A program made the translations under genes and the position numbers. Below, piece after piece: positions 1,343-13,695 of a stretch of 40,394 nt of DNA. This DNA comes from a virus. Location: IMG/VR virus record IMGVR_UViG_3300027734_000136, positions 1 to 40,394 of that record. The stretch is one strand, 5' to 3'. The notes under the pieces are model-generated. The model searched no databases. It saw only the letters and a list, made by a program, of their open reading frames with translations, and had not been told where the DNA came from. Numbering within the stretch: position 1 is the stretch's first letter; every line of letters begins with the position of its first letter.

Positions 1343-2310
1343 AAGCATTTTGGAAATGGTGGGAAGCTGAGTTACAGCACTCATTAAGAGAGTTAAGAGT
1401 AACAGGAGGCGAGCCTACTATGTCTCAAGACTTTTGGAAGTTAATGAAATGGTGGGAAAATAATAAAGACTGTGCTGTAGATTTTGCAGTTAATTCTAAT
1501 TTAGGACAGAAAGATGAATTATTTGAAGAATTATTAAAAGCAAGCCACAACATTAAAAGTTTTCATTTATATACAAGCTGTGAATCGACAGGTGCTCATG
1601 CCGAGTACATTAGAGACGGTTTAAAATGGGAGAAGTGGGTTAGTAATGTAGAAAGAATGTTAAAAGAAGGTAATGTAAAGTCTATAAACTGTATGATGAC
1701 AATTAATGCATTATGTTTATTTTCTATTACAGACTTTATGGACGAAATATTGAGACTAAAAAGAGAATATAAAACTCCTTCACCTCACTGTTCATTCAAC
1801 ATATTACGTTTTCCTTCCTTCCAGTCAATAGTAACTCTACCTAAACATATTAGAGAAGAGAGAGCTAATCATATTGAAAAATGGATATTTGATAATTATG
1901 ATGGAGGTGCAAACTTCTTTCAAGATTGGGAAAGAGACGGAATGTTAAGAATGGTAGCCTATATAAGAGAAATCGAAACAGGACATAACCATACTTCTTC
2001 TTTAGAGTCTAGAGAGAGAGATTTTAAGTCTTTTTATACTCAATACGATATAAGAAGAAATAAAAACTTCGTAGAAACATTTCCAATGTTAAAAGAATGG
2101 TTTGAAGCAATACCTGAAACAAACATAGCACCATTAAAAGAAGCTATTAACGGAGATGACGCAAAATCTAACCGTTACGTAGACGAGGTAATGGAAACTG
2201 CTAAGAAAGAAGGCTGGGTATTAAATCCACAGTGGGCTAATCCAGGAGCTCAAGACTATATTGAACCTGATCAGCAAGATGAAATGTTAAACTTTATTAA
2301 AAATGGTTAA
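1303..2310 (+). CDS. Radical SAM protein, C-terminal half (split by frameshift)
   Basis: This 335-residue frame continues the radical SAM protein that starts at 743. It contains the GGEP motif (ELRVTGGEPTMS, about residues 32-43) that contacts the SAM amino group, the rest of the barrel, and the C-terminal DIRRNKNFVETFPML segment shared with the partial gene at 1-175. The ATG at 1303 is internal to the ancestral protein: the frame is open back to 1285 and reads HDGNHA before that ATG. Without the CxxxCxxC half upstream it cannot bind the cluster. It ends with an 8-base overlap with the next radical SAM gene. It is either one part of a broken gene, a sequencing or assembly indel, or (less likely) the product of recoding. 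Confidence 0.75.
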   Translation: MPYGKKNEGNPYVEAFWKWWEAELQHSLRELRVTGGEPTMSQDFWKLMKWWENNKDCAVDFAVNSNLGQKDELFEELLKASHNIKSFHLYTSCESTGAHAEYIRDGLKWEKWVSNVERMLKEGNVKSINCMMTINALCLFSITDFMDEILRLKREYKTPSPHCSFNILRFPSFQSIVTLPKHIREERANHIEKWIFDNYDGGANFFQDWERDGMLRMVAYIREIETGHNHTSSLESRERDFKSFYTQYDIRRNKNFVETFPMLKEWFEAIPETNIAPLKEAINGDDAKSNRYVDEVMETAKKEGWVLNPQWANPGAQDYIEPDQQDEMLNFIKNG

Positions 2311-3565
2311 TCTTAAAGACAGTAAGAACTTTTGTGCAGCCCCCTGGATGCATCTTCACGTAATTAATAACGGTGAGGCATTTCCTTGTTGTATGACTCC
2401 TCTTGAAAAGGAAAATTCATTCGGTAATGTTAAAGAACAAACTCTATTAGAGGTAGTTAATAGTAATACTGCTAAAGAAATGCGACTGAGGATGTTAGAA
2501 GATAAGCCTTTACCTAAGAGTTGCGAAAGATGTACTAATAGAGAAGAGCACGGTCTTACAAGTATGAGACAGGGGATGAACGGTAATTGGTACGACAAGG
2601 TTAAAACAAACATAGAAAAGACAAACCCAGACGGATCAGTTAACGAACTCAACTTAAGGTATTGGGATTTTAGGTTTAGTAACTACTGTAATCTGTCCTG
2701 TAGAACTTGCGGACCTTTATTTAGCAGTGCTTGGGCTAATGACTATCCAAAATTACATATTGACGATCAACAAACAGGAGTCATACATTTAGATGATGCA
2801 GAAATTTTTTGGAAGGATATTGAAGAGAACGTTAAAAACATGGATCAGATAATGTTTGCAGGAGGTGAACCGATGTTAATGAACGAACACTGGAGAATGA
2901 TAGATTTATTTGAAAAATATAATCATTATGATGTTGAGTTAAAGTATTCTACTAATGCAACTCTGCTACATAGAGGGAAGAGAAATATTTTAGATATTTG
3001 GCCTAAGTTTAGACATATTCATTTAAGTTTAAGTATTGATGGAGTTGGTGATACTTTTGAATATGTAAGAAACGGAGGTAAATGGCCTCAAGTTGAAACC
3101 AATTTACTTAACATAGATAAAAACCATATTGATTTTTGGATACACCCTACAGTAAGCAATTTAAACATCTTTAGATTAACAGAGTTACATAAAAAGCTCT
3201 TTGATATGGGAATTATTCCTGCAGAGAAAAAAGAAAAAGAACAGTATTATGGCATAGAAGATTATTTCATTAAGAGATTCCATATAAATCCTCTGTATGT
3301 TCAAGAGTTTAATTGTATCAAAGCTCTTCCTCCTGAATTGAAAGAATTAGCAACAGATAAGATTACAAAGTATGGAAAAGAGTTATACGATAAACACGGA
3401 ATTCCTAAAGAAGGGTGGGACTCAATAGTACACTTTATGTGGGAGTCTGATCAATCACACTTATTTCAAGAGTTTGTAGACATGACTACGAAGTTAGACA
3501 TAATAAGAAATCAAAACATATTAGCAATTAACCCTGAGTATAAAAACTATTTTAAATTAAAGTAA
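2303..3565 (+). CDS. Radical SAM / twitch domain protein
   Basis: A complete 420-residue radical SAM protein. The N-terminus has the pattern CAAPWMHLHV, then FPCC and CERC (C11, C29, C30, C74, C77), typical of a group of phage and bacterial radical SAM proteins with an extra cysteine-rich entry domain. The cluster motif CxxxCxxC is C129, C133, C136 (CNLSCRTC), and GGEP is at 187-190. The remaining barrel and a C-terminal region related to the two upstream paralogues follow. The reaction is unknown; families with this layout act in peptide and sugar modification. The stop codon shares one base with the next ATG (TAATG), so it is probably translationally coupled to the SGNH hydrolase. It is the only intact radical SAM protein of the three here. 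Confidence 0.85.
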   Translation: MVNLKDSKNFCAAPWMHLHVINNGEAFPCCMTPLEKENSFGNVKEQTLLEVVNSNTAKEMRLRMLEDKPLPKSCERCTNREEHGLTSMRQGMNGNWYDKVKTNIEKTNPDGSVNELNLRYWDFRFSNYCNLSCRTCGPLFSSAWANDYPKLHIDDQQTGVIHLDDAEIFWKDIEENVKNMDQIMFAGGEPMLMNEHWRMIDLFEKYNHYDVELKYSTNATLLHRGKRNILDIWPKFRHIHLSLSIDGVGDTFEYVRNGGKWPQVETNLLNIDKNHIDFWIHPTVSNLNIFRLTELHKKLFDMGIIPAEKKEKEQYYGIEDYFIKRFHINPLYVQEFNCIKALPPELKELATDKITKYGKELYDKHGIPKEGWDSIVHFMWESDQSHLFQEFVDMTTKLDIIRNQNILAINPEYKNYFKLK

Positions 3566-4497
3566 TGCACGGATTAACTATTTTTAAAGAATTAAAAAAG
3601 CAAAACAAAGAAAGTATTCTATTTAGATACGATCAACTAAAGGATTACGAAGAGTTACGTCTATTGTCGCTGTACTTAATGAGTAAAAGTACTAATATTA
3701 TATGCGAATCTCCTACTAGGTTTGAAGTCTTACATGCTTTAGAAGAAAAGGAGTCTAAGGAAGCTATTAACAAAGGTAAAACTAGTTTTAAATTTGAAGA
3801 TGTACATTATGATATGAGTGAATTAGGTTATAGAATTACAAATCCTTTAGAAAATATAAAAAATTCCGTTGGAGTATTCGGATGTAGCTATACCTTTGGA
3901 GTAGGAGTACCTTACGAGAAAGTATATTCTTCCATACTTGAGCGTAAACTTAAAAAACCCGTTTATAATTTCGGAATACCTGGAGGAAATATACAGAAGA
4001 TAGCTAAAGCTTTCTGTTCTATTAATAACTTTTACAGGTTAGATACAGCTGTTTTCGTCCTACCCTCTTTATACCGTTACGAATTTATAAGAGAAGCCGG
4101 CGATTGCTTTTATCAAGAGGATCTTATTCCAAATTATCCTCCTTATGATAATCCTAGGGTATATAAAATGTTGTACGAAGAGTTTGACGACACAACGTTT
4201 TTTAATGAGTATATAAAAAATATAAACCTTATAAAGTATAATGCAAAAATACAAAGCACAAAAACCTACATTACGACTTGGTGTAAAGCTACTTTAGATC
4301 TTGTTAGAAAATATAATTTAGATTTATTTAACGTAGAACAGACGAGGTTTGTAGAATCAGAAGAATCACATGCAGGGATTAATGTTACAGATTTTGCTAG
4401 AGACGGATATCATCCCGGTATAAGATCTCATGCATTATCTGCTGATTCTATCTATAACGCAATTGTTCCTCCTAGAGACACTAAAAAACTTATATGA
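3565..4497 (+). CDS. SGNH/GDSL-like hydrolase
   Basis: A 310-residue protein with the hallmarks of SGNH hydrolases. Block I is GCSYTFGVG with the likely nucleophile S108, a Gly/Asn block follows at about 136-142 (FGIPGGN), and the C-terminal D280-x-x-H283 is in RDGYHPG. Such enzymes hydrolyse ester bonds, often O-acetyl groups on sugars, or can act as transferases. The first 100 residues are an extra N-terminal domain of unknown fold. No signal peptide is visible, so it works in the cytoplasm or in the virion. It overlaps the carbamoyltransferase gene by four bases (ATGA). A second SGNH gene closes the island at 13692. The real substrate is unknown. Confidence 0.75.
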   Translation: MHGLTIFKELKKQNKESILFRYDQLKDYEELRLLSLYLMSKSTNIICESPTRFEVLHALEEKESKEAINKGKTSFKFEDVHYDMSELGYRITNPLENIKNSVGVFGCSYTFGVGVPYEKVYSSILERKLKKPVYNFGIPGGNIQKIAKAFCSINNFYRLDTAVFVLPSLYRYEFIREAGDCFYQEDLIPNYPPYDNPRVYKMLYEEFDDTTFFNEYIKNINLIKYNAKIQSTKTYITTWCKATLDLVRKYNLDLFNVEQTRFVESEESHAGINVTDFARDGYHPGIRSHALSADSIYNAIVPPRDTKKLI

Positions 4498-6050
4498 TAG
4501 TACTAGGCATTTCAGCATATTATCATGATTCAGCGGCTTGTTTATTTCAAGACGATAAACTCGTATTTGCATGTGAGGAAGAAAAGTTTACAGGTATAAA
4601 ACATGATTCTAGCTTTCCTACACACGTTGTAAACTACATTAAAGAACATTATACAGATAAATTCGATTTAATTTGCTATTACGAAAAACCAAACTTTAAA
4701 TTATTAAGAGCTTTAAAGCACAACTGGCTATCGGTACCGCGTATACTATGGACTAATATAAAATTACGGTTCAAATTAAGAGAGCTTTGCAAGAATACGT
4801 TCTTTTCTGAACATCATATGTCTCACTTAATGTATGCTTACTACAGTTCTCCCTTTAAAGACGCTACTTTAATGAGTATTGACGGAGTAGGAGAAGAAGA
4901 AACTTTACGAATAATGGAAGTTACTGACGGAATGGTCATTCCACAAGTATCTATTAAGTATCCGCATTCTCTTGGCTTACTTTACTCTGCTATTACGTCA
5001 TATCTTGGCTTTAAACCTAACGAAGGCGAATATAAAGTAATGGGACTTGCTTCTTACGGAGATCCCACTGCCTATAAGGGTAAGTTTAGGAAATTATTAA
5101 ATTATAAGAGAGGATTACAGGTAGATATGAAGTATTTTACCTGGAGTAGGAGTAACAGAGTAATGTTTAATCATCACTTAGTCGAGCTGCTAGGAGAAAA
5201 TAGACTTCCAGATGAACCAATAGAACAAAGACACAAAGATATTGCAGCAGCACTTCAATGGATATACGAACAAGCATTATTTCATTACTTAAAGCAATTC
5301 CCAGGCGAAAATTTATGTTTAAGCGGGGGATGTGCTTATAACGGAACAGCAAACGGCAAGATTAAGACAAATACTTCTTATAAGAACGTGTGGATACCGC
5401 TAGCTCCTTCAGATGCAGGTTCCTGTATAGGGGCTTGTTTAAATTATTTAAATAAAAATATAAACCAAGACCCTTTCTTAGGTCCTTCTTACGAAGACTT
5501 CGAAATGTGTAACTCTAAACCTTTAGATTTAGGTACTATTGCTAAAGAACTTAACGACGGGAAGGTAGTGGGATGGTTTGAAGGTAGAATCGAGTTTGGA
5601 GCAAGAGCTTTAGGACATAGGAGTATTTTAGCAAATCCAACTCTACCTGGAATGCAAGATCGAATAAACAAGCTTATTAAAAAACGTGAGATGTTTAGGC
5701 CATTTGCACCAATGGTAATCCAAGAGGCTCAATCTATGTTCTTTGAATCGGATGACTTTGTTCCCTATATGAATCAAGTAGTAAAAGTAAAGGAAAAGTA
5801 TAGAGATAAATTAAAAGCAGTAACTCACGTAGATGGAACAGCAAGAATACAGACCGTTTATGATCAAAAAAGTAAAATGTACGAGTTACTATGGAAATTT
5901 AAACAATTAAGCGGCTTTCCGATACTATTAAACACCTCTTTTAACATAAAGGATAAGACAATGGTACTAACTCCGGAAGATGCTTATAAAACTTTTTTGG
6001 AAACTAACATAGATATCCTTATTATTAATAATAAAATGTACTTTAAATGA
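4494..6050 (+). CDS. Carbamoyltransferase, NodU/CmcH/TobZ family
   Basis: A 518-residue protein that spans the whole NodU/CmcH family. The N-terminal Kae1-like ATPase/carbamoyl-adenylate domain opens with ILGISAYYHDSAACL and EEEKFTG, followed by the histidine region EHHMSHLMYAYYSS, the nucleotide-binding segments LMSIDGVGEE and LSGGCAYNG, and the C-terminal domain with GARALGHRSILANP and RPFAPMV. In this family carbamoyl phosphate and ATP give carbamoyl-adenylate, and the carbamoyl group then moves to a hydroxyl of a sugar or antibiotic. In a phage the acceptor may be a glycan, a virion protein or a modified nucleotide; sequence does not say. It is flanked by SGNH and APS kinase genes and shares ATGA with the small gene after it. 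The family call is firm; the substrate is open. Confidence 0.9.
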   Translation: MIVLGISAYYHDSAACLFQDDKLVFACEEEKFTGIKHDSSFPTHVVNYIKEHYTDKFDLICYYEKPNFKLLRALKHNWLSVPRILWTNIKLRFKLRELCKNTFFSEHHMSHLMYAYYSSPFKDATLMSIDGVGEEETLRIMEVTDGMVIPQVSIKYPHSLGLLYSAITSYLGFKPNEGEYKVMGLASYGDPTAYKGKFRKLLNYKRGLQVDMKYFTWSRSNRVMFNHHLVELLGENRLPDEPIEQRHKDIAAALQWIYEQALFHYLKQFPGENLCLSGGCAYNGTANGKIKTNTSYKNVWIPLAPSDAGSCIGACLNYLNKNINQDPFLGPSYEDFEMCNSKPLDLGTIAKELNDGKVVGWFEGRIEFGARALGHRSILANPTLPGMQDRINKLIKKREMFRPFAPMVIQEAQSMFFESDDFVPYMNQVVKVKEKYRDKLKAVTHVDGTARIQTVYDQKSKMYELLWKFKQLSGFPILLNTSFNIKDKTMVLTPEDAYKTFLETNIDILIINNKMYFK

Positions 6051-6156: not shown

Positions 6157-6594
6157 ATGATAATATGGTTAACAGGACAGCCTGGAGCAGGTAAGACAAC
6201 CCTGGCTAAATGGCTAGAAGCACATTTTGCAGGTAAAGCCGCTATCGTAGACGGTGATGATATTAGAGCGATCTTTGATAATAAAGACTATTCAGAAGCA
6301 GGTAGAAGAAAGAATATAGAATTAGCTCAAAACATAGCTAAATTTTATCACCACAAAGGAAATATTGCTATTGTATCGCTGGTATCACCTTATAAAGATC
6401 AACGAGATTCCTTTAAGGAAGCCATAGGAGACGGTATTGTAGAGGTATACGTACATACTACAGATATTAGAGGTAGAGAACAGTTTCACGTAGCGGATTA
6501 TAGTGCTCCTACAGAGAATTTTGTAGATATCGATACTACTAGTAGATCAGAGTTTGAAGTATTTCAAGAATTAAGACAAAAATTGAGTTTATGA
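6157..6594 (+). CDS. cysC: Adenylylsulfate (APS) kinase-like protein
   Basis: A 145-residue P-loop kinase of the CysC family. Walker A is GQPGAGKT at 7-14; the APS-binding region includes VDGDDIR at 31-37, the helix SEAGRRKNIELAQNIAKF, and SPYKDQR at 77-83 (the SPYRxxR block of APS kinases). Near the C-terminus YSAPTENFVDIDTT matches the family YExPxxPEIxIDT region. APS kinase phosphorylates APS to PAPS, the donor for sulfotransferases. It is shorter than typical bacterial CysC (about 180-200 residues). APS itself would have to come from host ATP sulfurylase, as none is seen here. Two sulfotransferase-like genes lie downstream (9634, 12088) and a DUF2061 gene two positions on, a family often found beside CysC. 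A different small-molecule kinase role remains possible. Confidence 0.8.
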   Translation: MIIWLTGQPGAGKTTLAKWLEAHFAGKAAIVDGDDIRAIFDNKDYSEAGRRKNIELAQNIAKFYHHKGNIAIVSLVSPYKDQRDSFKEAIGDGIVEVYVHTTDIRGREQFHVADYSAPTENFVDIDTTSRSEFEVFQELRQKLSL

Positions 6595-6977
6595 AAAATA
6601 TATTAGCAAAAGGCAACAGTAATGGTAAAGGTCATGCAATGTTTATCGGTAGATGGCAGCCTTGGCATGATGGACACCGCTGGTTAATAGATCAGGCTTT
6701 AAATGAAGGAAAAAAGGTGTTATTATGTATTAGAGACGTAGAGCCTGACGAGAAAAACCCTTGGACTGCACACGAGGTTCTAATGAATCTTGCTACAGTT
6801 CTAACAGATCTAGTATCTGAAGGAAAAGTTAAAATTATTACTATTCCCGATATAGAATCAGTTAATATCGGAAGAGGAATTGGATACGATGTAATTGAGC
6901 ATGTACCACCTCAAGAAGTACACGACATTTCTGCTACCAAAATTAGAGAGCAAATGAAAAAAGAGGGAAAGTTGTGA
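6591..6977 (+). CDS. Nucleotidyltransferase, HxGH-type (cytidylyltransferase-like)
   Basis: A 128-residue protein of the nucleotidylyltransferase superfamily. It has the HxGH signature as H26-D-G-H29 in GRWQPWHDGHRWL and the C-terminal ISATKIR at 113-119, which holds the second nucleotide-binding motif (ISSTxxR in NMNAT, PPAT and CTP:phosphocholine-type enzymes). These enzymes couple a nucleoside triphosphate to a phosphorylated small molecule, releasing pyrophosphate. It overlaps the APS kinase by four bases and is followed by a GTGA overlap with DUF2061, so the three form one unit. It is not an ATP sulfurylase by motif, although pairing with APS kinase makes a role in activating a sulfur or sugar compound tempting. 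The substrate is unknown. Confidence 0.75.
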   Translation: MKNILAKGNSNGKGHAMFIGRWQPWHDGHRWLIDQALNEGKKVLLCIRDVEPDEKNPWTAHEVLMNLATVLTDLVSEGKVKIITIPDIESVNIGRGIGYDVIEHVPPQEVHDISATKIREQMKKEGKL

Positions 6978-7183
6978 TAGTAGAGAGGAAAAGACATATA
7001 GTTAAAACGATCAGTTATAGAATCGTAAGTACTTTAATTGGATTCCTACTAATGTGGCTAATAAGCGGATCTATTAAAGTAGGAGCTGCATTTGGAATAG
7101 CGGAATTAGTGTATAAACCGATTCAGTACTATATTCATGAAAGAATCTGGTATAAATGGATAAAATACGGGTTAAGGAAGTAG
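6974..7183 (+). CDS. DUF2061 small membrane protein
   Basis: A 69-residue protein with a GTG start inside the stop of the previous gene (GTGA). It has the DUF2061 signature: RHIVKTISYRIVSTLIGFLL at the N-terminus, a second hydrophobic stretch around GAAFGIAELVYKPI, and the ending YYIHERIWYKWIKYG. Two membrane helices are likely, so it sits in the host inner membrane. DUF2061 genes are often neighbours of sulfate-activation genes in bacteria, which matches the APS kinase two genes upstream. Its biochemical role is not established. It is the last gene before a 38-base gap with a promoter-like motif. Confidence 0.85.
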   Translation: MIVERKRHIVKTISYRIVSTLIGFLLMWLISGSIKVGAAFGIAELVYKPIQYYIHERIWYKWIKYGLRK

Positions 7184-7192
7184 TTTTTATAG

Positions 7193-7209
7193 CTATTTAT
7201 AGATAAATA
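7193..7209 (+). promoter_or_regulatory. Promoter-like motif CTATTTATA within an inverted repeat
   Basis: CTATTTATA occurs at 7193-7201, 20 bases before the ATG of the fibre-like gene. It is the left arm of an inverted repeat, TATTTAT-AG-ATAAATA (7194-7209). The right arm reads ATAAATA on the + strand, which resembles the T4 late promoter core TATAAATA. It may be a late promoter or a regulator site; which strand it works on is not clear. Confidence 0.45.
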
Positions 7210-7221
7210 AGTAAAACGCAT

Positions 7222-9171
7222 ATGAGAGCAGTTATTATAGGAACCGACTTTATGAAAGATATAGATGGATCTTTCAAAGCTTTAGAAACGAATACTAATG
7301 TACAGTTAGATACTCAGTGGTCGTTAAATTTCGATTCTGCATCTTTTGAGAATTTCGTAACATCTAATAATTTTACAGAAATTGTTTTAATTTCAAATGA
7401 AAACAATTTATCAGCACAGTCAAGTTATACGTTTAATTACGATTTTGAAGAGTTAAAGACGAAAATTAGTCAAAATTCAGAAAATAGTACAGCTGTTTTT
7501 TCAAGTTTTAAATCTTACTTAGCTGATTTTACATCAGGAAGTTCTATAACTTTTAATACATTTCAAACCGATAGGACTTCAATTACTGTTCCGTTTGTAG
7601 AAGATGAAGATAGCAAGTTAATTATTCGATTATCATATGATACTACAGCATTAATTGACGATACATATGCAAGAGATAACTGCGAGTTTTTAAAGTTAAT
7701 GTACGACGCAGACCCAAATTCTGTTCCGAAGTGTTATATAAATAACGACGAAATTATCCTTGATTCGATCGGTACTACTTTGAGAGATAATGGAAATCAT
7801 CCAAACTACTGTATTAAAAGACGAGTGACTCCTTTTGATAACAAAACATATCCAAAATTACTTAAAGTTGATACAATTGAACAATTAAATGTATTGAAGT
7901 CTAATTTAAGAGCTGAAGAGTATATCCAGGAGTTTATATACAATACTGATGATTTATTAGATAACAGAGTTAAATCGTATAGAAGTGTAGATCTACTGTA
8001 CGGTTCAAATTTAGATATTATTAACTTACAAACTTTAGAAAAAACTGCAAATTTAGAAGTAGTAGAAAGTTGTGATTTTGACGATAATGGAGAAGTTCAA
8101 TACTGGGATAGAATGAGATACTGTCAAAAATTTTACACTCAAATTTCAGAAGTTGCAGTAAAGTTAGATGCAACTGATAATACGAAAATTATACTACCAG
8201 ACGGAAATATATCTTTAGCAAAAGAGCTCAATACCGGTGATAGTGTGAAATCAATACTATTTAGTACTTTATCAACTGACGATAGAGCTCAACCTGCACT
8301 AACGTGGAGTAGTTCTTTTAACGAGACAGTAGCAAATTTTGAAATATCGACAACTGAGTTAGTAAACACTGGTTCTTTAAACTATTTCGGTACATTAGTC
8401 ACGTTCGAAACTGATACTAATGCGATATTTTCAGATGTAGGGCATGCTGAAATTATGGTTAAAGACGGAGATAACGCAAAATTTCAACAGTACATAAATT
8501 TAATTGCAGGTAGCACAGTCGTCTTATTTGATAGTTTGACTAATGAACTAGTAACATCAGTTATAACTAATATAACATACAAATTCGATAAATTTAAAGG
8601 GTACTTGCTAGACTTTGAAGCATCAGATTTATTTTTGACGTTAGAAGAGACAGAAACACAGAGCAGATACGGTTTAGTAACACATAATTACGGTTACGAC
8701 TGTAGATACGTAAGATGCCCTCCAGGAGACCGAAATAACACTTTATTTCTTTTTAATGACTGCGGTAGCAATTATTTTTATACGTACGGCGCACGTACCT
8801 ATGCTTACCTAGACCCAGGCACTGTATGTGCAAGGTACCCAGGCTATAGCCCTTATGGATATTCAACACCGGTATGCGAAACCAGCGATGAATCCGGAAA
8901 CGGACAAAATCCTTATTATCAAGTTTACGGGTATTGTAACGGACAAAAATCCGATGTTTTATATAAAGAGAATATAAAACTATACGATAAGTCTTTACAT
9001 GGTATAAACATATATCGTTTTAATTATAAAAACGAAGATGGCTTATATGAGGGAGTAATCGCACAAGAGTTAATTGGAACAAAATTTGAAAATGCATTAT
9101 CTAAAGATAGAAATGGTTTATATACGGTTGATTATAATAAAATAGATGTTGAATTTAAAAAAATAAAATAG
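7222..9171 (+). CDS. Tail-fibre-like protein with Hint-like and S74 chaperone domains
   Basis: A 649-residue protein. The C-terminus (about 575-649) is a Peptidase_S74 intramolecular chaperone domain: KSDVLYKENIKL with candidate self-cleavage Ser577, GLYEGVIAQEL, and GLYTVDYNKI. Such domains help fibre and spike proteins trimerise and are then cut off. Residues about 312-489 look like a Hint (intein-fold) domain: TKIILPDGNISLAKELNTGD at the start, a histidine block VGHAEIMVKDGD, and THN at 487-489, but no Cys or Ser where a splicing nucleophile belongs. Residues 490-574 are very rich in Tyr, Cys, Pro and Gly. The N-terminus GTDFMKDIDGSFKALETNTN resembles the metal-binding end of ATP-grasp proteins, a weak match. 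Likely a receptor-binding virion protein, in its own transcription unit. Confidence 0.75.
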   Translation: MRAVIIGTDFMKDIDGSFKALETNTNVQLDTQWSLNFDSASFENFVTSNNFTEIVLISNENNLSAQSSYTFNYDFEELKTKISQNSENSTAVFSSFKSYLADFTSGSSITFNTFQTDRTSITVPFVEDEDSKLIIRLSYDTTALIDDTYARDNCEFLKLMYDADPNSVPKCYINNDEIILDSIGTTLRDNGNHPNYCIKRRVTPFDNKTYPKLLKVDTIEQLNVLKSNLRAEEYIQEFIYNTDDLLDNRVKSYRSVDLLYGSNLDIINLQTLEKTANLEVVESCDFDDNGEVQYWDRMRYCQKFYTQISEVAVKLDATDNTKIILPDGNISLAKELNTGDSVKSILFSTLSTDDRAQPALTWSSSFNETVANFEISTTELVNTGSLNYFGTLVTFETDTNAIFSDVGHAEIMVKDGDNAKFQQYINLIAGSTVVLFDSLTNELVTSVITNITYKFDKFKGYLLDFEASDLFLTLEETETQSRYGLVTHNYGYDCRYVRCPPGDRNNTLFLFNDCGSNYFYTYGARTYAYLDPGTVCARYPGYSPYGYSTPVCETSDESGNGQNPYYQVYGYCNGQKSDVLYKENIKLYDKSLHGINIYRFNYKNEDGLYEGVIAQELIGTKFENALSKDRNGLYTVDYNKIDVEFKKIK

Positions 9172-9175
9172 AAGC

Positions 9176-9325
9176 ATGGCAACAGAAAATAATAAAAATT
9201 TATCTTATTCAAACTACAAAGATTTGTTTAAAAGACAGAAACTTGTTTCAAATAGTACAGTAAAGTTAAATTTACTGAATGCAGTAGCGGTATTGACGAG
9301 CGCAATAAAACAAAAGCATTCTTAA
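9176..9325 (+). CDS. Small hypothetical protein, 49 residues
   Basis: An ATG five bases after the fibre stop opens a 49-residue frame (MATENNKNLSYSNYKDLFKR at the start, ending AVLTSAIKQKHS). It fills most of the 178-base gap before the zinc-ribbon gene. It is soluble, with a predicted helical C-terminal half (VKLNLLNAVAVLTSAI). The clean position directly behind a virion gene and codon use like its neighbours support a real gene, perhaps a small partner of the fibre. No family recognised. Confidence 0.55.
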   Translation: MATENNKNLSYSNYKDLFKRQKLVSNSTVKLNLLNAVAVLTSAIKQKHS

Positions 9326-9337
9326 TAGAATTTTTTT
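9318..9337 (+). terminator. Weak terminator-like hairpin
   Basis: ATTCT (9318-9322) and AGAAT (9327-9331) can pair around a TAAT loop, followed by a run of T to 9337. The stem is only 5 bp with one G-C pair, so it is weak, but it lies right at the end of the small gene and before a new ATG. It could end the fibre transcript. Confidence 0.3.
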
Positions 9338-9348
9338 AATAATAAGTT

Positions 9349-9633
9349 ATGATAAAAAAAGTAAAAGAAATTGCAGAATCGTGGATTATTGCAGCAAATC
9401 CATCAAAAGAACAGTTAGTATTAGCAGCAGCTAGATTAAATATCTGTAACAATTGTGAATTTATAGGACATAGAAAGAATACAGGAAGTCCCGTCTGTAC
9501 TAACTGTGGCTGTCCTCTTAAGAAAAAAATATTTTCACCAATGTACGATGCCTGTCCGCTACACAAGTGGTTAGAGGTTGAAAATACAGAGCTATTTACA
9601 AATACTCAGAAAAAATCAAAAAGTTTTTTGTAG
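9349..9633 (+). CDS. Zinc-ribbon protein
   Basis: A 94-residue protein with ordered cysteine pairs: CNNC, CTNC followed by GC, then CPLHKW (about residues 33-36, 50-55, 69-74). This spacing indicates a zinc ribbon of the kind found as small phage proteins of unknown role, possibly binding nucleic acid or protein. The N-terminal 30 residues are helical. It starts in the GTTATG context shared with other genes here and its stop abuts the ATG of the sulfotransferase-like gene, so both are probably made from one message. A narrower function cannot be given. Confidence 0.7.
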   Translation: MIKKVKEIAESWIIAANPSKEQLVLAAARLNICNNCEFIGHRKNTGSPVCTNCGCPLKKKIFSPMYDACPLHKWLEVENTELFTNTQKKSKSFL

Positions 9634-10368
9634 ATGAGTTTATTAATTAATAACGAATTAATCTGGGTTAGTATTCCAAAAAATGCAAGCTATTCAGTCG
9701 AGCACTCACTATTAACTTCGAATCTTAGAATAGAACATGCACCAGTATATTATGCATTATTAGAAAGTAACAAGCTTAATAATACCGATGTATTACCGCA
9801 TCCGCATGTTAAATTAGATGAATTAAAGAGAGATTTCGGTGACAAAGAGACATTTTGTATAAAAAGAGATCCTTACGATAGATTTATAGCCGGAATTGAA
9901 TTTATTTTTTCAAAAATTATTACTGTAAACAATCATACTCCAGTAGTTGATATTAGCGAAATTGATAATAATTTTATATATTCGTTTTTTGATTTTGAAA
10001 CTATAAATAATTTATACGATACAACTAATCGAAGACATGAACTATGGTTTAATATTTACTGTAGACTAATTAAAGAAGAGTTAGATTTTAGTAGCACTTA
10101 TAGGAATGTGTTTACTAATCTCTCTACAATACTTTCACAAAACTATTGGACAAACTGTAAAAAATGTACCTACGAATTTGATATTTTAGATTTAGACAAG
10201 TATACTAAGTTTATAAATAAAAAATTTAATGTTAATATAGAAATTGAGAAGTTAAATACAACTATATACAAAAATAAATCAGGTATAATTAATAATATTG
10301 AATTTAAAAACTGGGTATATAATTCTTTTGAAAAAAGATTTGATATAAATAATAGAAATTTTATATGA
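9634..10368 (+). CDS. Sulfotransferase-like protein (first)
   Basis: A 244-residue protein with the two PAPS-binding signatures of the sulfotransferase superfamily. The 5'-phosphosulfate loop is WVSIPKNASYSVEHSLL, with P15-K16-N17-A18-S19 near the N-terminus. The 3'-phosphate region is CIKRDPYDRFIAGIEF (R78, then about S/A86). The layout is like the membrane-type carbohydrate sulfotransferases in short form. It would move a sulfuryl group from PAPS to a hydroxyl or amine on a sugar or protein. The C-terminal half is divergent. The APS kinase upstream could supply PAPS. It ends in an ATGA overlap with the first oxygenase gene. Sequence alone does not prove activity or acceptor. Confidence 0.7.
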   Translation: MSLLINNELIWVSIPKNASYSVEHSLLTSNLRIEHAPVYYALLESNKLNNTDVLPHPHVKLDELKRDFGDKETFCIKRDPYDRFIAGIEFIFSKIITVNNHTPVVDISEIDNNFIYSFFDFETINNLYDTTNRRHELWFNIYCRLIKEELDFSSTYRNVFTNLSTILSQNYWTNCKKCTYEFDILDLDKYTKFINKKFNVNIEIEKLNTTIYKNKSGIINNIEFKNWVYNSFEKRFDINNRNFI

Positions 10369-10859
10369 TAAGTTTTGTTAATAATTTACTAGATAAAGAC
10401 GAGTTTATTTTTTTAAAAGAAAAAATGACAGATAACTTAAATGATTTTACAATAAAACCAGATAAAGTTAAACTTACATACTATAAGACAGATATATCTA
10501 AACAAAAAAATAGCTTATTAAATTACTACAGTAAAATAAGCAGGTATGTAGATCTTAATATTTTTGATATTAGTTTTATTTCACTCAACTGTGCTACAGA
10601 CGATACAAACAGTGAAGATACGTTTCATAGAGATAATTGCGATAGAACAGTTATAACTTATTTAAACAATAATTTCAAAGGCGGAGAATTGCAATATATT
10701 CTAAACGAGGAAACAAAACTGTTTAATCCAATAGAGAATATGACCATAATATTTAATTCAAAAATTAAACACAGAATATTACCGGTAAAAGAAGGATTTA
10801 GATACTCCCTGGTAACTTTTTTCGTCCTAAAACCTACCAATATTATAAAGTTATTTTAA
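10365..10859 (+). CDS. 2-oxoglutarate/Fe(II) oxygenase (first, P4H-like)
   Basis: A 164-residue double-stranded beta-helix protein. The iron triad is visible as H88-x-D90 in FHRDNCDRTVITYL and H136 in KIKHRILPV, with R146 in EGFRYSLVTFF positioned to hold the 2-oxoglutarate carboxylate. The GGELQY strand between them is typical of prolyl 4-hydroxylase-type enzymes. It should hydroxylate a C-H bond using O2 and 2-oxoglutarate; the substrate is unknown. It starts within the stop of the sulfotransferase-like gene (ATGA), which suggests coupled translation. It is the first of five such genes between 10365 and 13695. Confidence 0.8.
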   Translation: MISFVNNLLDKDEFIFLKEKMTDNLNDFTIKPDKVKLTYYKTDISKQKNSLLNYYSKISRYVDLNIFDISFISLNCATDDTNSEDTFHRDNCDRTVITYLNNNFKGGELQYILNEETKLFNPIENMTIIFNSKIKHRILPVKEGFRYSLVTFFVLKPTNIIKLF

Positions 10860-10871
10860 TAAAAATCACAT

Positions 10872-11396
10872 ATGTACAGCCAGTATTTTAATATCTTATC
10901 CGAACAAGAGTATTCTATATGTAAAGAAATAATCGATAACTCTTTATGGAAATACGGTCATCTAAGTAGACCTACTTCCTCTCATAAGTTTTGGATGATA
11001 CCAAGTTTGACAAGTTATCCGTTTTTTAACAGTATTTTTATAAAAAAAATAGAGGAATTGACGAGTAATCAATTTGAAATAATTAGAATATACGCAAACG
11101 GTCATACGTTTGGTCAAGAAGGAGATTGGCATGTAGATTCTAAATTAGAAAATGCTTGGACGTTCTTATATTATTTTAATAAAGGAGACAGTAGTACTAT
11201 AGGAGAAACTTATTTTAAAGACGAACAGGATAACATTACTGATATCGCAAAACCTACACACAATAGCGGTATATTATTTAAAAGCGACCTTTACCATAAA
11301 GGGTCTTCGCCAAAAATAACATTTAATGATTTACGTATTACAATTGCATTTAAATTAAAAATGATCAAATTAAAATTAGATAAAACTTTGTTTTAA
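10872..11396 (+). CDS. 2-oxoglutarate/Fe(II) oxygenase (second)
   Basis: A 174-residue protein. The iron ligands appear as H87-x-D89 (GDWHVDSKLENAWTFLYYFN) and H142 (DLYHKGSSP), followed by R155 (DLRITIAFKL). The GETYF strand after the HxD motif is the usual place for the acidic or glycine-rich strand of the double-stranded beta-helix. The protein differs clearly from the other four oxygenases here, especially in its N-terminal 60 residues, so they are not simple tandem copies. The gene lies 12 bases after the previous stop and 9 bases before the next start. The substrate cannot be predicted. Confidence 0.8.
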   Translation: MYSQYFNILSEQEYSICKEIIDNSLWKYGHLSRPTSSHKFWMIPSLTSYPFFNSIFIKKIEELTSNQFEIIRIYANGHTFGQEGDWHVDSKLENAWTFLYYFNKGDSSTIGETYFKDEQDNITDIAKPTHNSGILFKSDLYHKGSSPKITFNDLRITIAFKLKMIKLKLDKTLF

Positions 11397-11405
11397 TTAA
11401 AAGGT

Positions 11406-12083
11406 ATGAAAATTGAAAAAATTTATTTTGATAAGGACACCTACATATGGAAGGTTAAGTTAAATTTAAAGGAATTTAAAGATGAATTCTTAAAGGAATG
11501 TTATGAAGAAATTGAATTACAAAAAAACCAAAAAGCTGATGGATACCTTCACCAGTACCACGTAAAAGATAAAGTAGATAATTACTTCTGGGAGCGATCA
11601 ACTTCGAAAGAAATATTAATTCTAAAAAAAATAGACACTATTATTCAAAGCGGTATAAATTATTCCGAAGAAATATATAAAAGTGCGCAAAATAATTGGA
11701 GTATTATAAATTCAGATTGTTGGATAAATAGAATACGTTCTAAACCAGTACAGCCAAACTTTTATGCTGAAACAAGAAGTAAAAAATTTCATACACATAC
11801 GGGAATTGCACACGCTACAAAGTCTTTTTACCCACATTACACCTGGGTATACTATATTCAAATGCCAAATAGATTAAGACCGGGTACAGACGACGGTATA
11901 ATTTACTTTAAATCAAATAAAGGTGTCGAATACAGCATACTACCAGAAGAAGACGACTTAATTATAATGCCTGGAGATATGCCGCATTTTCCAATGAACG
12001 CATCAGAGTCAACTATTGATAGGATAGTTTTAGCTGGAAATGTTGGATTTGAACATTTAAAAGTTACAAAAACTTTAATGTAA
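11406..12083 (+). CDS. 2-oxoglutarate/Fe(II) oxygenase (third, cupin-like)
   Basis: A 225-residue protein with the layout of the putative 2OG-Fe(II) oxygenase family related to PF13759. An H-x-H pair (H129, H131 in KKFHTHTG) precedes a strand ending WVYYIQMP, then GIIYFKS, then LIIMPGDMPHFP with H194, and finally DRIVLAGNV with R206 for 2-oxoglutarate. The first 90 residues form a separate helical N-terminal domain with no known match. Members of this family are frequent in marine and T4-like phages with no proven substrate. It belongs to the same gene run as the oxygenases on either side but comes from a different subfamily. Confidence 0.75.
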   Translation: MKIEKIYFDKDTYIWKVKLNLKEFKDEFLKECYEEIELQKNQKADGYLHQYHVKDKVDNYFWERSTSKEILILKKIDTIIQSGINYSEEIYKSAQNNWSIINSDCWINRIRSKPVQPNFYAETRSKKFHTHTGIAHATKSFYPHYTWVYYIQMPNRLRPGTDDGIIYFKSNKGVEYSILPEEDDLIIMPGDMPHFPMNASESTIDRIVLAGNVGFEHLKVTKTLM

Positions 12084-12087
12084 CGGT

Positions 12088-12678
12088 ATGGTTATTATAG
12101 TAATAGCAGAACCAAGAACCGGTTCGACAAATCTTGCTAATTGGTTTTCTGCTAAGAAAAATTTTACTGTTTTACAAGAACCGATAGCAAATTTAAGAGC
12201 GAAGGATTTTAAAAACGGCATAACTCCTTTTAGATGGGAGTATCAGACAGAACATTTGTTTGTAAAAGATATTTTAGGTAACGGCTTACATTTTAATGAA
12301 TTAATCTCTATTTCTGACAGAGTAATATTGCTTTACAGAGAAAACGAAGAAGAACAAATAGAGTCTTGGTTGAACGCTAAGGTAGAAGGTACCTGGCATC
12401 AACAATGGATATACAAGGAACTAGAGAGTAAAGAAGAAGAAGAGGCGTTTAAAAAAGTAAAAAGACGTTTTAAAGAAGAGTATCTTGATAAAGACTTTTT
12501 TAAAATCTCTTACGAAGAGTTATACTATAGAGACGGCTTTGAAAAAGTGTTAGAGTACATAGGTATTGAAGATTTAAAAAATAAAGGTTTTCCTTACGGA
12601 AAAAAGTATAGAGTAAATTCAGAAGAAGAAATTAAAATAGACTTAAAGGATGAAAATAGAAAGCCGAAATTTATTTAA
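12088..12678 (+). CDS. Sulfotransferase-like protein (second)
   Basis: A 196-residue P-loop-like protein. The N-terminus IIVIAEPRTGSTNLANWF has the sulfotransferase 5'-phosphosulfate loop PRTGSTNL at 9-16, and R84 in ILLYRENEEEQIESW fits the 3'-phosphate site (R followed by a helix with S93). It resembles Stf0-type and other small bacterial sulfotransferases and is clearly different from the gene at 9634. The C-terminal third is strongly charged. It probably transfers sulfate from PAPS to an unknown acceptor. Its last 29 bases overlap the next oxygenase gene, whose ATG lies inside it, so expression of the two is linked. Confidence 0.7.
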   Translation: MVIIVIAEPRTGSTNLANWFSAKKNFTVLQEPIANLRAKDFKNGITPFRWEYQTEHLFVKDILGNGLHFNELISISDRVILLYRENEEEQIESWLNAKVEGTWHQQWIYKELESKEEEEAFKKVKRRFKEEYLDKDFFKISYEELYYRDGFEKVLEYIGIEDLKNKGFPYGKKYRVNSEEEIKIDLKDENRKPKFI

Positions 12679-13201
12679 TACAGAGGAGGTAAGTAAGATA
12701 CTTTCCTATGTAGAACAATGGGAGAATACTAATATCGAAGTAAGACTAGGGTCTAACTACTCAAAGAATGGCGGTGTGATGAAATCCTTTAAAATAATCT
12801 GGAATAAAGATAACCTATGGATTCAAGATAGAATTATAGATTGGGTAAATGCCTTGCCGGGAATAATAACAATTAATAAGAGTAGTACTATTGAATGTAC
12901 TTTTAGAAGATATGAGGTAGGAGACTTTTTTATTAAACATGATGACCATGTATATAGTGGAGATAAGAGAATATACACTTTAGGAATACAACTATCTGAC
13001 TTAGAGAACTTCTCAGGAGGTGATTTAAAATTTTACTTACCTGATACCGAGTATATCCTACCTTACGAAAAAGGAAAAGCTTACATATTCGATTCAGGCA
13101 TTCCTCATTCAGTAGAGTTGGTAACTAAAGGCGTTAGAGAGACTTTAATGTTTTTTATAGGGGAGTCTAATATTAAGCGTAACGAAAGAAACTTCATATG
13201 A
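12650..13201 (+). CDS. 2-oxoglutarate/Fe(II) oxygenase (fourth, P4H/PHD-like)
   Basis: A 183-residue protein typical of short prolyl hydroxylase-like enzymes. FRRYEVGDFFIKHDDHV carries H97-x-D99, the strand RIYTLGIQLSDLENFSGGDLKFY follows, the second histidine is H153 in IPHSVELVTKG and R163 (VRETLMFFI) binds 2-oxoglutarate. The FxxYxxGDFxxxHxD pattern is a strong match to the P4Hc family, whose known members hydroxylate proline in proteins; phage members are untested. It begins 29 bases inside the second sulfotransferase gene and ends in an ATGA overlap with the fifth oxygenase. Its last residues, NERNFI, resemble the NNRNFI end of the gene at 9634. Confidence 0.85.
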   Translation: MKIESRNLFNTEEVSKILSYVEQWENTNIEVRLGSNYSKNGGVMKSFKIIWNKDNLWIQDRIIDWVNALPGIITINKSSTIECTFRRYEVGDFFIKHDDHVYSGDKRIYTLGIQLSDLENFSGGDLKFYLPDTEYILPYEKGKAYIFDSGIPHSVELVTKGVRETLMFFIGESNIKRNERNFI

Positions 13202-13695
13202 TTAAGCAAAAGGTTATTTTTAGTAAAGAAGAATGTAGTACTATAATCGATTTTTTTAAAAAAGAAAGTGAATTATGGAGTAATTCAGATAGAAAATATC
13301 AATCTGCTATTATAGATTTTACTACAGAAACTGAATGGCTATTTACTAGACTAAAAGAGTTTTTTGAAGCAGAGATAGAAATAAAAATTATAAAATTGAA
13401 AAATTTTATACATTTACATAGGTACGAAAAGGGGGATTGGTTTGGGAGACATAAAGATACTAGAGAAAGTAGAATGTATGCTGTAGGAGTGTGTCTAAAC
13501 GATGAGTATAAAGGAGGCGACTTTGTACTTTATGATAAGGAAGCTTATCTACTAGAAAAAAGAGCCGGAAATGCTTACGTATTTGATGTTAATACCGAAC
13601 ACGAAATAACACCGATAGAAGAAGGAGAGAGGTATTCACTTATTTGGTTTTTAGAGAATACTAATTTAAAAATAAAAATTAAATCTTTAATATGA
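13198..13695 (+). CDS. 2-oxoglutarate/Fe(II) oxygenase (fifth, P4H/PHD-like)
   Basis: A 165-residue relative of the previous gene: HLHRYEKGDWFGRHKDTRESRMYAVGV holds H85-x-D87 after the RYEKGDWF strand, GGDFVLY follows, H135 is in NTEHEITPI and R145 in GERYSLIWFLE. All ligands for iron and 2-oxoglutarate are present, so it is probably active. Similarity to the fourth oxygenase in the core suggests an old duplication, but the N-terminal 60 residues differ. It overlaps both neighbours by four bases, giving tight translational coupling from 12650 to 14456. Confidence 0.85.
   Translation: MIKQKVIFSKEECSTIIDFFKKESELWSNSDRKYQSAIIDFTTETEWLFTRLKEFFEAEIEIKIIKLKNFIHLHRYEKGDWFGRHKDTRESRMYAVGVCLNDEYKGGDFVLYDKEAYLLEKRAGNAYVFDVNTEHEITPIEEGERYSLIWFLENTNLKIKIKSLI

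Follow-up and report, generated by a model that had tools for sequence, protein, structure and literature searches.

Organization of the cassette

The window analysed here, a 40.4-kb virus fragment (IMG/VR record IMGVR_UViG_3300027734_000136, positions 1 to 40,394), contains tail sheath, tail tube and replication genes and was attributed to a myophage. Positions 6157 to 7183 hold a cassette of three plus-strand genes, KIN, NT and DUF2061, in which adjacent genes share 4-nt overlaps. KIN (6157..6594) encodes a 145-aa P-loop kinase of the adenosine 5'-phosphosulfate (APS) kinase family in a short-lid variant, NT (6591..6977) a 128-aa HxGH nucleotidyltransferase with a NadM-like core, considered here as a candidate minimal ATP sulfurylase, and DUF2061 (6974..7183, GTG start) a small predicted membrane protein matching PF09834 (1.7e-16; 60.8 bits, cut-off 23.1). 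On the same strand they are followed by FIB (7222..9171), encoding a tail-fibre/virion-like protein, and by genes for two probable sulfotransferases, ST1 (9634..10368) and ST2 (12088..12678). An earlier note on this DNA had described a sulfation module made up of an APS kinase-like protein at 6157, a DUF2061 membrane protein and two sulfotransferases around a tail-fibre-like gene. The first two assignments were confirmed and the observation holds in part, but the centre of the module is the KIN-NT-DUF2061 cassette, and NT had been overlooked.

KIN matched the APS kinase family PF01583 with 72.1 bits (6.7e-20; cut-off 21.1), the next best family being Zeta_toxin (8.6e-8). The closest solved structures found by PDB profile search were all APS kinases. 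Its P-loop, DGDxxR, GRxxN and SPY..R motifs are invariant in the family alignment and align with those of canonical CysC. By sequence KIN is an APS-kinase-like protein of a short-lid clade, and it groups with APS kinases rather than with non-APS kinases.

The small nucleotidyltransferase

NT was recognized by PF01467 (4.9e-6) and by the NadM profile from the PDB (4.7e-7), while its score against the NMN-adenylyltransferase equivalog TIGR01527 was 37.5 bits versus a cut-off of 181.2. It keeps the HxGH and SxxxxR motifs, with H26/H29 and S114/R119 invariant. Residues 84-115 of MTH150, which we take to contain NMN-site residues, have no counterpart in the alignment; these ~32 residues are replaced by ~7 that carry a GRxxGY motif, invariant from phages through haloarchaea. 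Retention of HxGH, GRxxGY and SxxxxR together with loss of the NMN-site segment would fit a small acceptor. An NMN adenylyltransferase role was down-weighted on account of the missing segment and the low NMN-adenylyltransferase scores. In phages, the bacterial genome G008 and haloarchaea, NT has an HxxH-type core, and its gene is linked to those for APS kinases and sulfotransferases. An AlphaFold2 model (pLDDT 70.5) retrieved NadM/PPAT folds first, with an ATP sulfurylase-APS kinase further down the list (ranks 36 and 39); a model of this quality is too modest to decide the substrate.

Probable sulfotransferases

ST1 carries a PKNAS 5'-phosphosulfate loop and an RDPYDRF 3'-phosphate loop, and the PKxAS and R..S loops are conserved across its family alignment. 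Residues 5-160 matched phrog_3347, annotated as 'Galactose-3-O-sulfotransferase' (1.1e-6). Neither a Pfam sulfotransferase match nor a PDB profile match was found for ST1, and one member of its family showed a weak Pfam sulfotransferase match. ST2 has a PRTGST loop, R84..S93 and a YEEL motif and lacks the Walker-A lysine; PRxGS, R84, S93 and YE are conserved in its family. It scored 16.9 bits against Sulfotransfer_3 (PF13469, 0.0078; cut-off 27). Profile comparison by hhalign linked ST2 with two families of bona fide sulfotransferases at 44-60%, versus less than 1% for six control families. PDB profile searches with ST2 gave nothing useful. A scan of viral contigs with ST2 alone yielded no confirmed relative; its relatives came from the KIN, ST1 and NT loci.

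The two proteins are probably sulfotransferases, judged from their sequences, and the earlier assignment holds as far as the loops go, although the profile scores remain below threshold. A PAPS (3'-phosphoadenosine 5'-phosphosulfate) pocket could be supported in part: the ST2 model (pLDDT 80) is ambiguous, with nucleoside kinases matching first and SULT2A1 (3.5e-4), SULT7A1 and TPST2 among the best matches. That the two are unrelated, as had been claimed, is doubtful, since their profiles align with each other (78% in one direction, 59% in the other), and they may be distantly related. A further sulfotransferase, C8, is encoded near KIN in relatives of the window and matched Sulfotransfer_3 (6.3e-16) and Sulfotransfer_1 (3.2e-15) above cut-off.

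Conservation of the cassette in phages

The same gene order and partners are seen again and again, in well over 100 loci of viruses, which bears out the earlier view that a chance mix is less likely; related phages do carry these genes together. Nearly all of 50 viral KIN loci carry NT and DUF2061 in unchanged order. KIN is present in 143 of 149 viral NT loci, and the gap between KIN and NT is at most 60 nt in 129 of the 143. C8 lies at position -1 or -2 (upstream) of KIN in 50 of the 53 loci that have both, always on the same strand and often with a 4-nt overlap. A sulfotransferase (C8, ST1 or ST2) was found in 56 of 106 distinct KIN loci against none of 28 sheath-related loci without KIN-NT (Fisher p=3e-8). 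For whole records, PF13469 matched 29/39 with NT versus 0/11 without it (p=9e-6), and PF03567 matched a few additional NT records and no control records. Glycosyltransferase genes are also located near the cassette in other phages (for instance a multidomain protein in locus L118).

Two Stenotrophomonas phages, DLP_6 (L095) and Bhz60 (L096), encode a diverged KIN-NT fusion with 35.5% and 30.8% identity to NT, respectively; in Bhz60 it adjoins a NADAR gene. In many phages DUF2061 is preceded by a domain of ~80 aa (RFN..S..DRWR; e.g. L024:8823-9269), which stands alone after NT in G008 (L193:18338-18571).

Cellular relatives

The nearest cellular homologues of KIN belong to Flavobacteriales, with up to 53-54% identity. 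There the typical order is purA-KIN-DUF2061-cysD-cysN, and in four genomes TIGR02039 confirmed the CysD assignment. KIN is the sole APS-kinase match in 15 of the 16 flavobacterial KIN-CysDN genomes searched, the sixteenth having one extra weak partial match. Of 30 flavobacterial DUF2061 loci, 19 have cysD, cysN or an APS kinase gene no more than ~1.5 kb away, and in one flavobacterial genome DUF2061 and a canonical full-lid APS kinase form a single fused protein (L284:853-1704). The flavobacterial KIN proteins often end in a HAD-like domain (L062:8001-8801 and similar; PF13419 1.9e-5). Verrucomicrobial KIN adjoins one to three sulfotransferases (Sulfotransfer_2/3).

In G008, a metagenome-assembled genome (MAG) of Crocinitomicaceae, a 19.8-kb contig carries KIN-NT followed by genes for an exporter ATPase, three sulfotransferases, glycosyltransferase-like proteins and twitch radical SAM proteins, a cluster which looks like one for surface glycan export. 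Searches of its 2.4-Mb draft sequence for CysD and for Sat found neither. No other NT was detected among 399 genomes sampled from its order, where matches were marginal only (E>=1.8e-4), and 396 from its phylum; NT thus appears rare in Bacteroidota chromosomes.

Plasmids of Haladaptatus, Natronococcus, Halostagnicola and Halocatena encode a full-lid CysC fused to NT. The C-terminal domain is 44-48% identical to NT of the window (37% in Halocatena), and the fusion is located one or two genes after a sulfotransferase. Between the two, these cassettes (L194-L197) carry a gene of the YqcI/YcgG family and a small ORF. A tblastn match on a Microvirga plasmid (H26) was dropped, being unannotated and having an interrupted translated frame.

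Proposed function

The KIN family and its linkage to CysDN and sulfotransferases, in several cellular groups as well as in phages, point to PAPS as the product of the cassette. We consider it fairly likely that KIN-NT-DUF2061 is a phage cassette that makes PAPS to feed sulfotransferases, with NT acting as the sulfurylase. NT would adenylylate inorganic sulfate (ATP + sulfate -> APS + PPi) in place of ATP sulfurylase, and KIN would phosphorylate the 3'-OH of APS to give PAPS. DUF2061 would be a membrane accessory of sulfate activation, sulfate supply and membrane anchoring both being guesses. The sulfotransferases (here ST1 and ST2, in many relatives a Sulfotransfer_3 protein) would then pass the sulfuryl group to an acceptor, for which our best guess is a surface glycan of the infected cell, or else a decoration of a tail fibre or adhesin. 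The cassette of the window precedes FIB, which is possibly a mere neighbour and possibly an acceptor candidate.

The role of NT is suggested by its fusion to canonical CysC, its adjacency to KIN, the lack of any other sulfurylase found in G008 and the loss of the NMN-site segment. Sulfate activation is known to proceed by Sat, by CysDN or by fused PAPS synthases. Whether NT joins Sat and CysDN as a third class of ATP sulfurylase, miniature in size, namely a NadM-like enzyme that has lost the NMN pocket and now activates sulfate, giving separate or fused PAPS synthetases for sulfation in phages, Bacteroidota and haloarchaea, is in our judgement evenly balanced. The earlier note had proposed that PAPS is made for sulfation from APS drawn from the host. 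The first part is strongly supported by the gene neighbourhoods seen in phages, Flavobacteriales, Verrucomicrobia and haloarchaea; the second is probably incomplete, since NT is located where an ATP sulfurylase gene would be and the phage may make its own APS.

Several observations weigh against this proposal. The canonical CysC lid (RDxKGxYxKARxGEIxxFTGIDxP) is absent from KIN, which has RGRExFHV instead, and the 74.1 bits obtained against the apsK equivalog TIGR00455 do not reach its cut-off of 138.7. For these two reasons KIN is labelled APS-kinase-like and assigned to a short-lid clade, and given the missing lid its substrate may differ from APS. NT is not filed as Sat (PF01747: 13.6 bits, 0.045, cut-off 24.3); because its sequence is nearer to NadM than to ATP sulfurylase and its model is modest, its sulfurylase role is an inference. 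ST1 and ST2 both fall below the Pfam cut-offs. The phage co-occurrence counts come from relatives that are not phylogenetically independent, with many short loci and few controls. In three viral loci the available DNA shows NT-DUF2061 but no KIN, and some phage fragments with ST1 lack both KIN and NT. Finally, G008 is a draft MAG and may be incomplete.

Alternative explanations

KIN could make PAPS from host APS while NT is only co-inherited and has another job, for example on another nucleotide-activated building block. The closest solved relatives of NT are indeed NMN adenylyltransferases, and Flavobacteriales and Verrucomicrobia use KIN without NT; yet haloarchaea have NT joined to canonical CysC, nearly all viral loci place it beside KIN, and G008 offered no other sulfurylase. 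We regard this reading as unlikely. Somewhat less probable still is that KIN-NT makes a different 3'-phosphorylated nucleotide donor, whose group the 'sulfotransferases' would transfer. A precedent is given by Campylobacter, where the CysC-like Cj1415 phosphorylates CDP-amidate; its partners in the CDP-amidate route to MeOPN are a glutamine kinase, a cytidylyltransferase and an amidate hydrolase. Such a donor would agree with the lack of a canonical APS lid in KIN, with its score below the apsK equivalog cut-off and with the cytidylyltransferase-like core of NT. It agrees poorly with the presence of KIN in operons with CysD/CysN and with the haloarchaeal NT fused to a full-lid CysC beside a sulfotransferase; glutamine-kinase and amidate genes were not noticed among the neighbours of KIN, although no dedicated test for them was made.

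A very improbable possibility is NAD+ salvage, in which the nicotinamide riboside kinase would be KIN and the NMN adenylyltransferase would be NT. The NadM-like character of NT and the distant KIN-NT-like fusion beside a NADAR gene in a Stenotrophomonas phage speak for it, but KIN is APS-kinase-like, the partners of the two genes are sulfotransferases and cys genes, and NT falls far short of the TIGR01527 cut-off and misses the ~32 residues of the NMN-site region. We give hardly any credence to an assimilatory-sulfur gene set that raises PAPS for cysteine synthesis. Metagenomic surveys usually read viral cysC in this way, for example by listing it among auxiliary genes for assimilatory sulfate reduction (PMC9611531), and Flavobacteriales retain KIN with CysDN. 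However, neither CysH nor downstream assimilation genes were recognized near KIN, and the recurrent partners in phages are sulfotransferases; for viral cysC the data favour sulfation over assimilatory sulfate reduction.

Other features of the window

The tail-fibre-like gene of the earlier note, FIB, was supported by matches to phrog_6121 (virion structural, 9.8e-8) and phrog_6578 (tail fiber, 0.0015), whereas the Peptidase_S74 match of its C-terminal S74-like stretch (0.0021) is below cut-off. Immediately 5' of KIN lies a plus-strand gene for a carbamoyltransferase of the NodU/CmcH type (4494..6050; PF16861 1.1e-64, PF02543 1.7e-58). It is found upstream of KIN in 6 of 106 distinct KIN loci and is co-conserved in the nearest relatives only.

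The overlapping frames 743-1342 and 1303-2310 resemble a single radical SAM gene broken by a frameshift, the CxxxCxxC motif being in the first and the rest in the second; a sequencing error or a real break is possible. They are followed by a twitch-domain radical SAM/SPASM protein (2303-3565; NF033640 1.3e-109). Three similar-looking proteins are encoded in the G008 cluster that holds KIN-NT and the sulfotransferases (L193), and the link may be non-accidental. Around ST1 and ST2, five small 2OG-Fe(II) oxygenase-like genes are accumulated within 3.3 kb (10365-13695), and relatives of these are present in many KIN phages. Promoter and terminator scans performed no better than on shuffled sequence.

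Significance and comparison with known systems

If the proposal is true, many viral cysC genes gain a concrete alternative job, the supply of PAPS for sulfation. If NT does activate sulfate, a central reaction would be solved in a new way, and NT with KIN would form a compact source of PAPS, ~270 residues in all. Adsorption, superinfection exclusion and defence could be affected by sulfate groups on phage parts or by phage-imposed sulfation of host surfaces. Phage sulfotransferases have been noted with unclear function (PMC10580990), a question that becomes testable with an operon providing the sulfuryl donor. Literature searches on DUF2061-cysC, CysC-nucleotidyltransferase and phage PAPS, which covered few subscription papers, turned up no earlier description, nor did the literature searched assign NT a role as ATP sulfurylase substitute. 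Published surveys report viral cysC or phage sulfotransferases singly, and no work found in these searches joins them in one operon with NT and DUF2061.

Like the CysC-CysD-CysN operon, the same kinase clade together with DUF2061 accompanies CysD/CysN in Flavobacteriales; phages, G008 and haloarchaea differ in pairing the kinase with NT and adding sulfotransferases. The proposed pair of reactions is the same as that of PAPSS1/2, with their N-terminal APS kinase and C-terminal ATP sulfurylase, the kinase being N-terminal in animal PAPS synthases (PMC3734648). The haloarchaeal CysC-NT is arranged like these enzymes, with the kinase first and an HxGH-type nucleotidyltransferase second. Unlike in PAPSS1/2, the second domain is a 128-aa NadM-like domain that is not recognized as PF01747, and the phages encode NT separately from a kinase that has no canonical lid. 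NT itself is most similar to NadM (MTH150), its best structural match, with which it shares the HxGH core, the GR.QP.H.GH motif and SxxxxR near the C-terminus, but it differs in the shortening of the NMN-site region from ~32 to ~7 residues, in scores far below the NMN-adenylyltransferase cut-offs and in its sulfation-gene partners.

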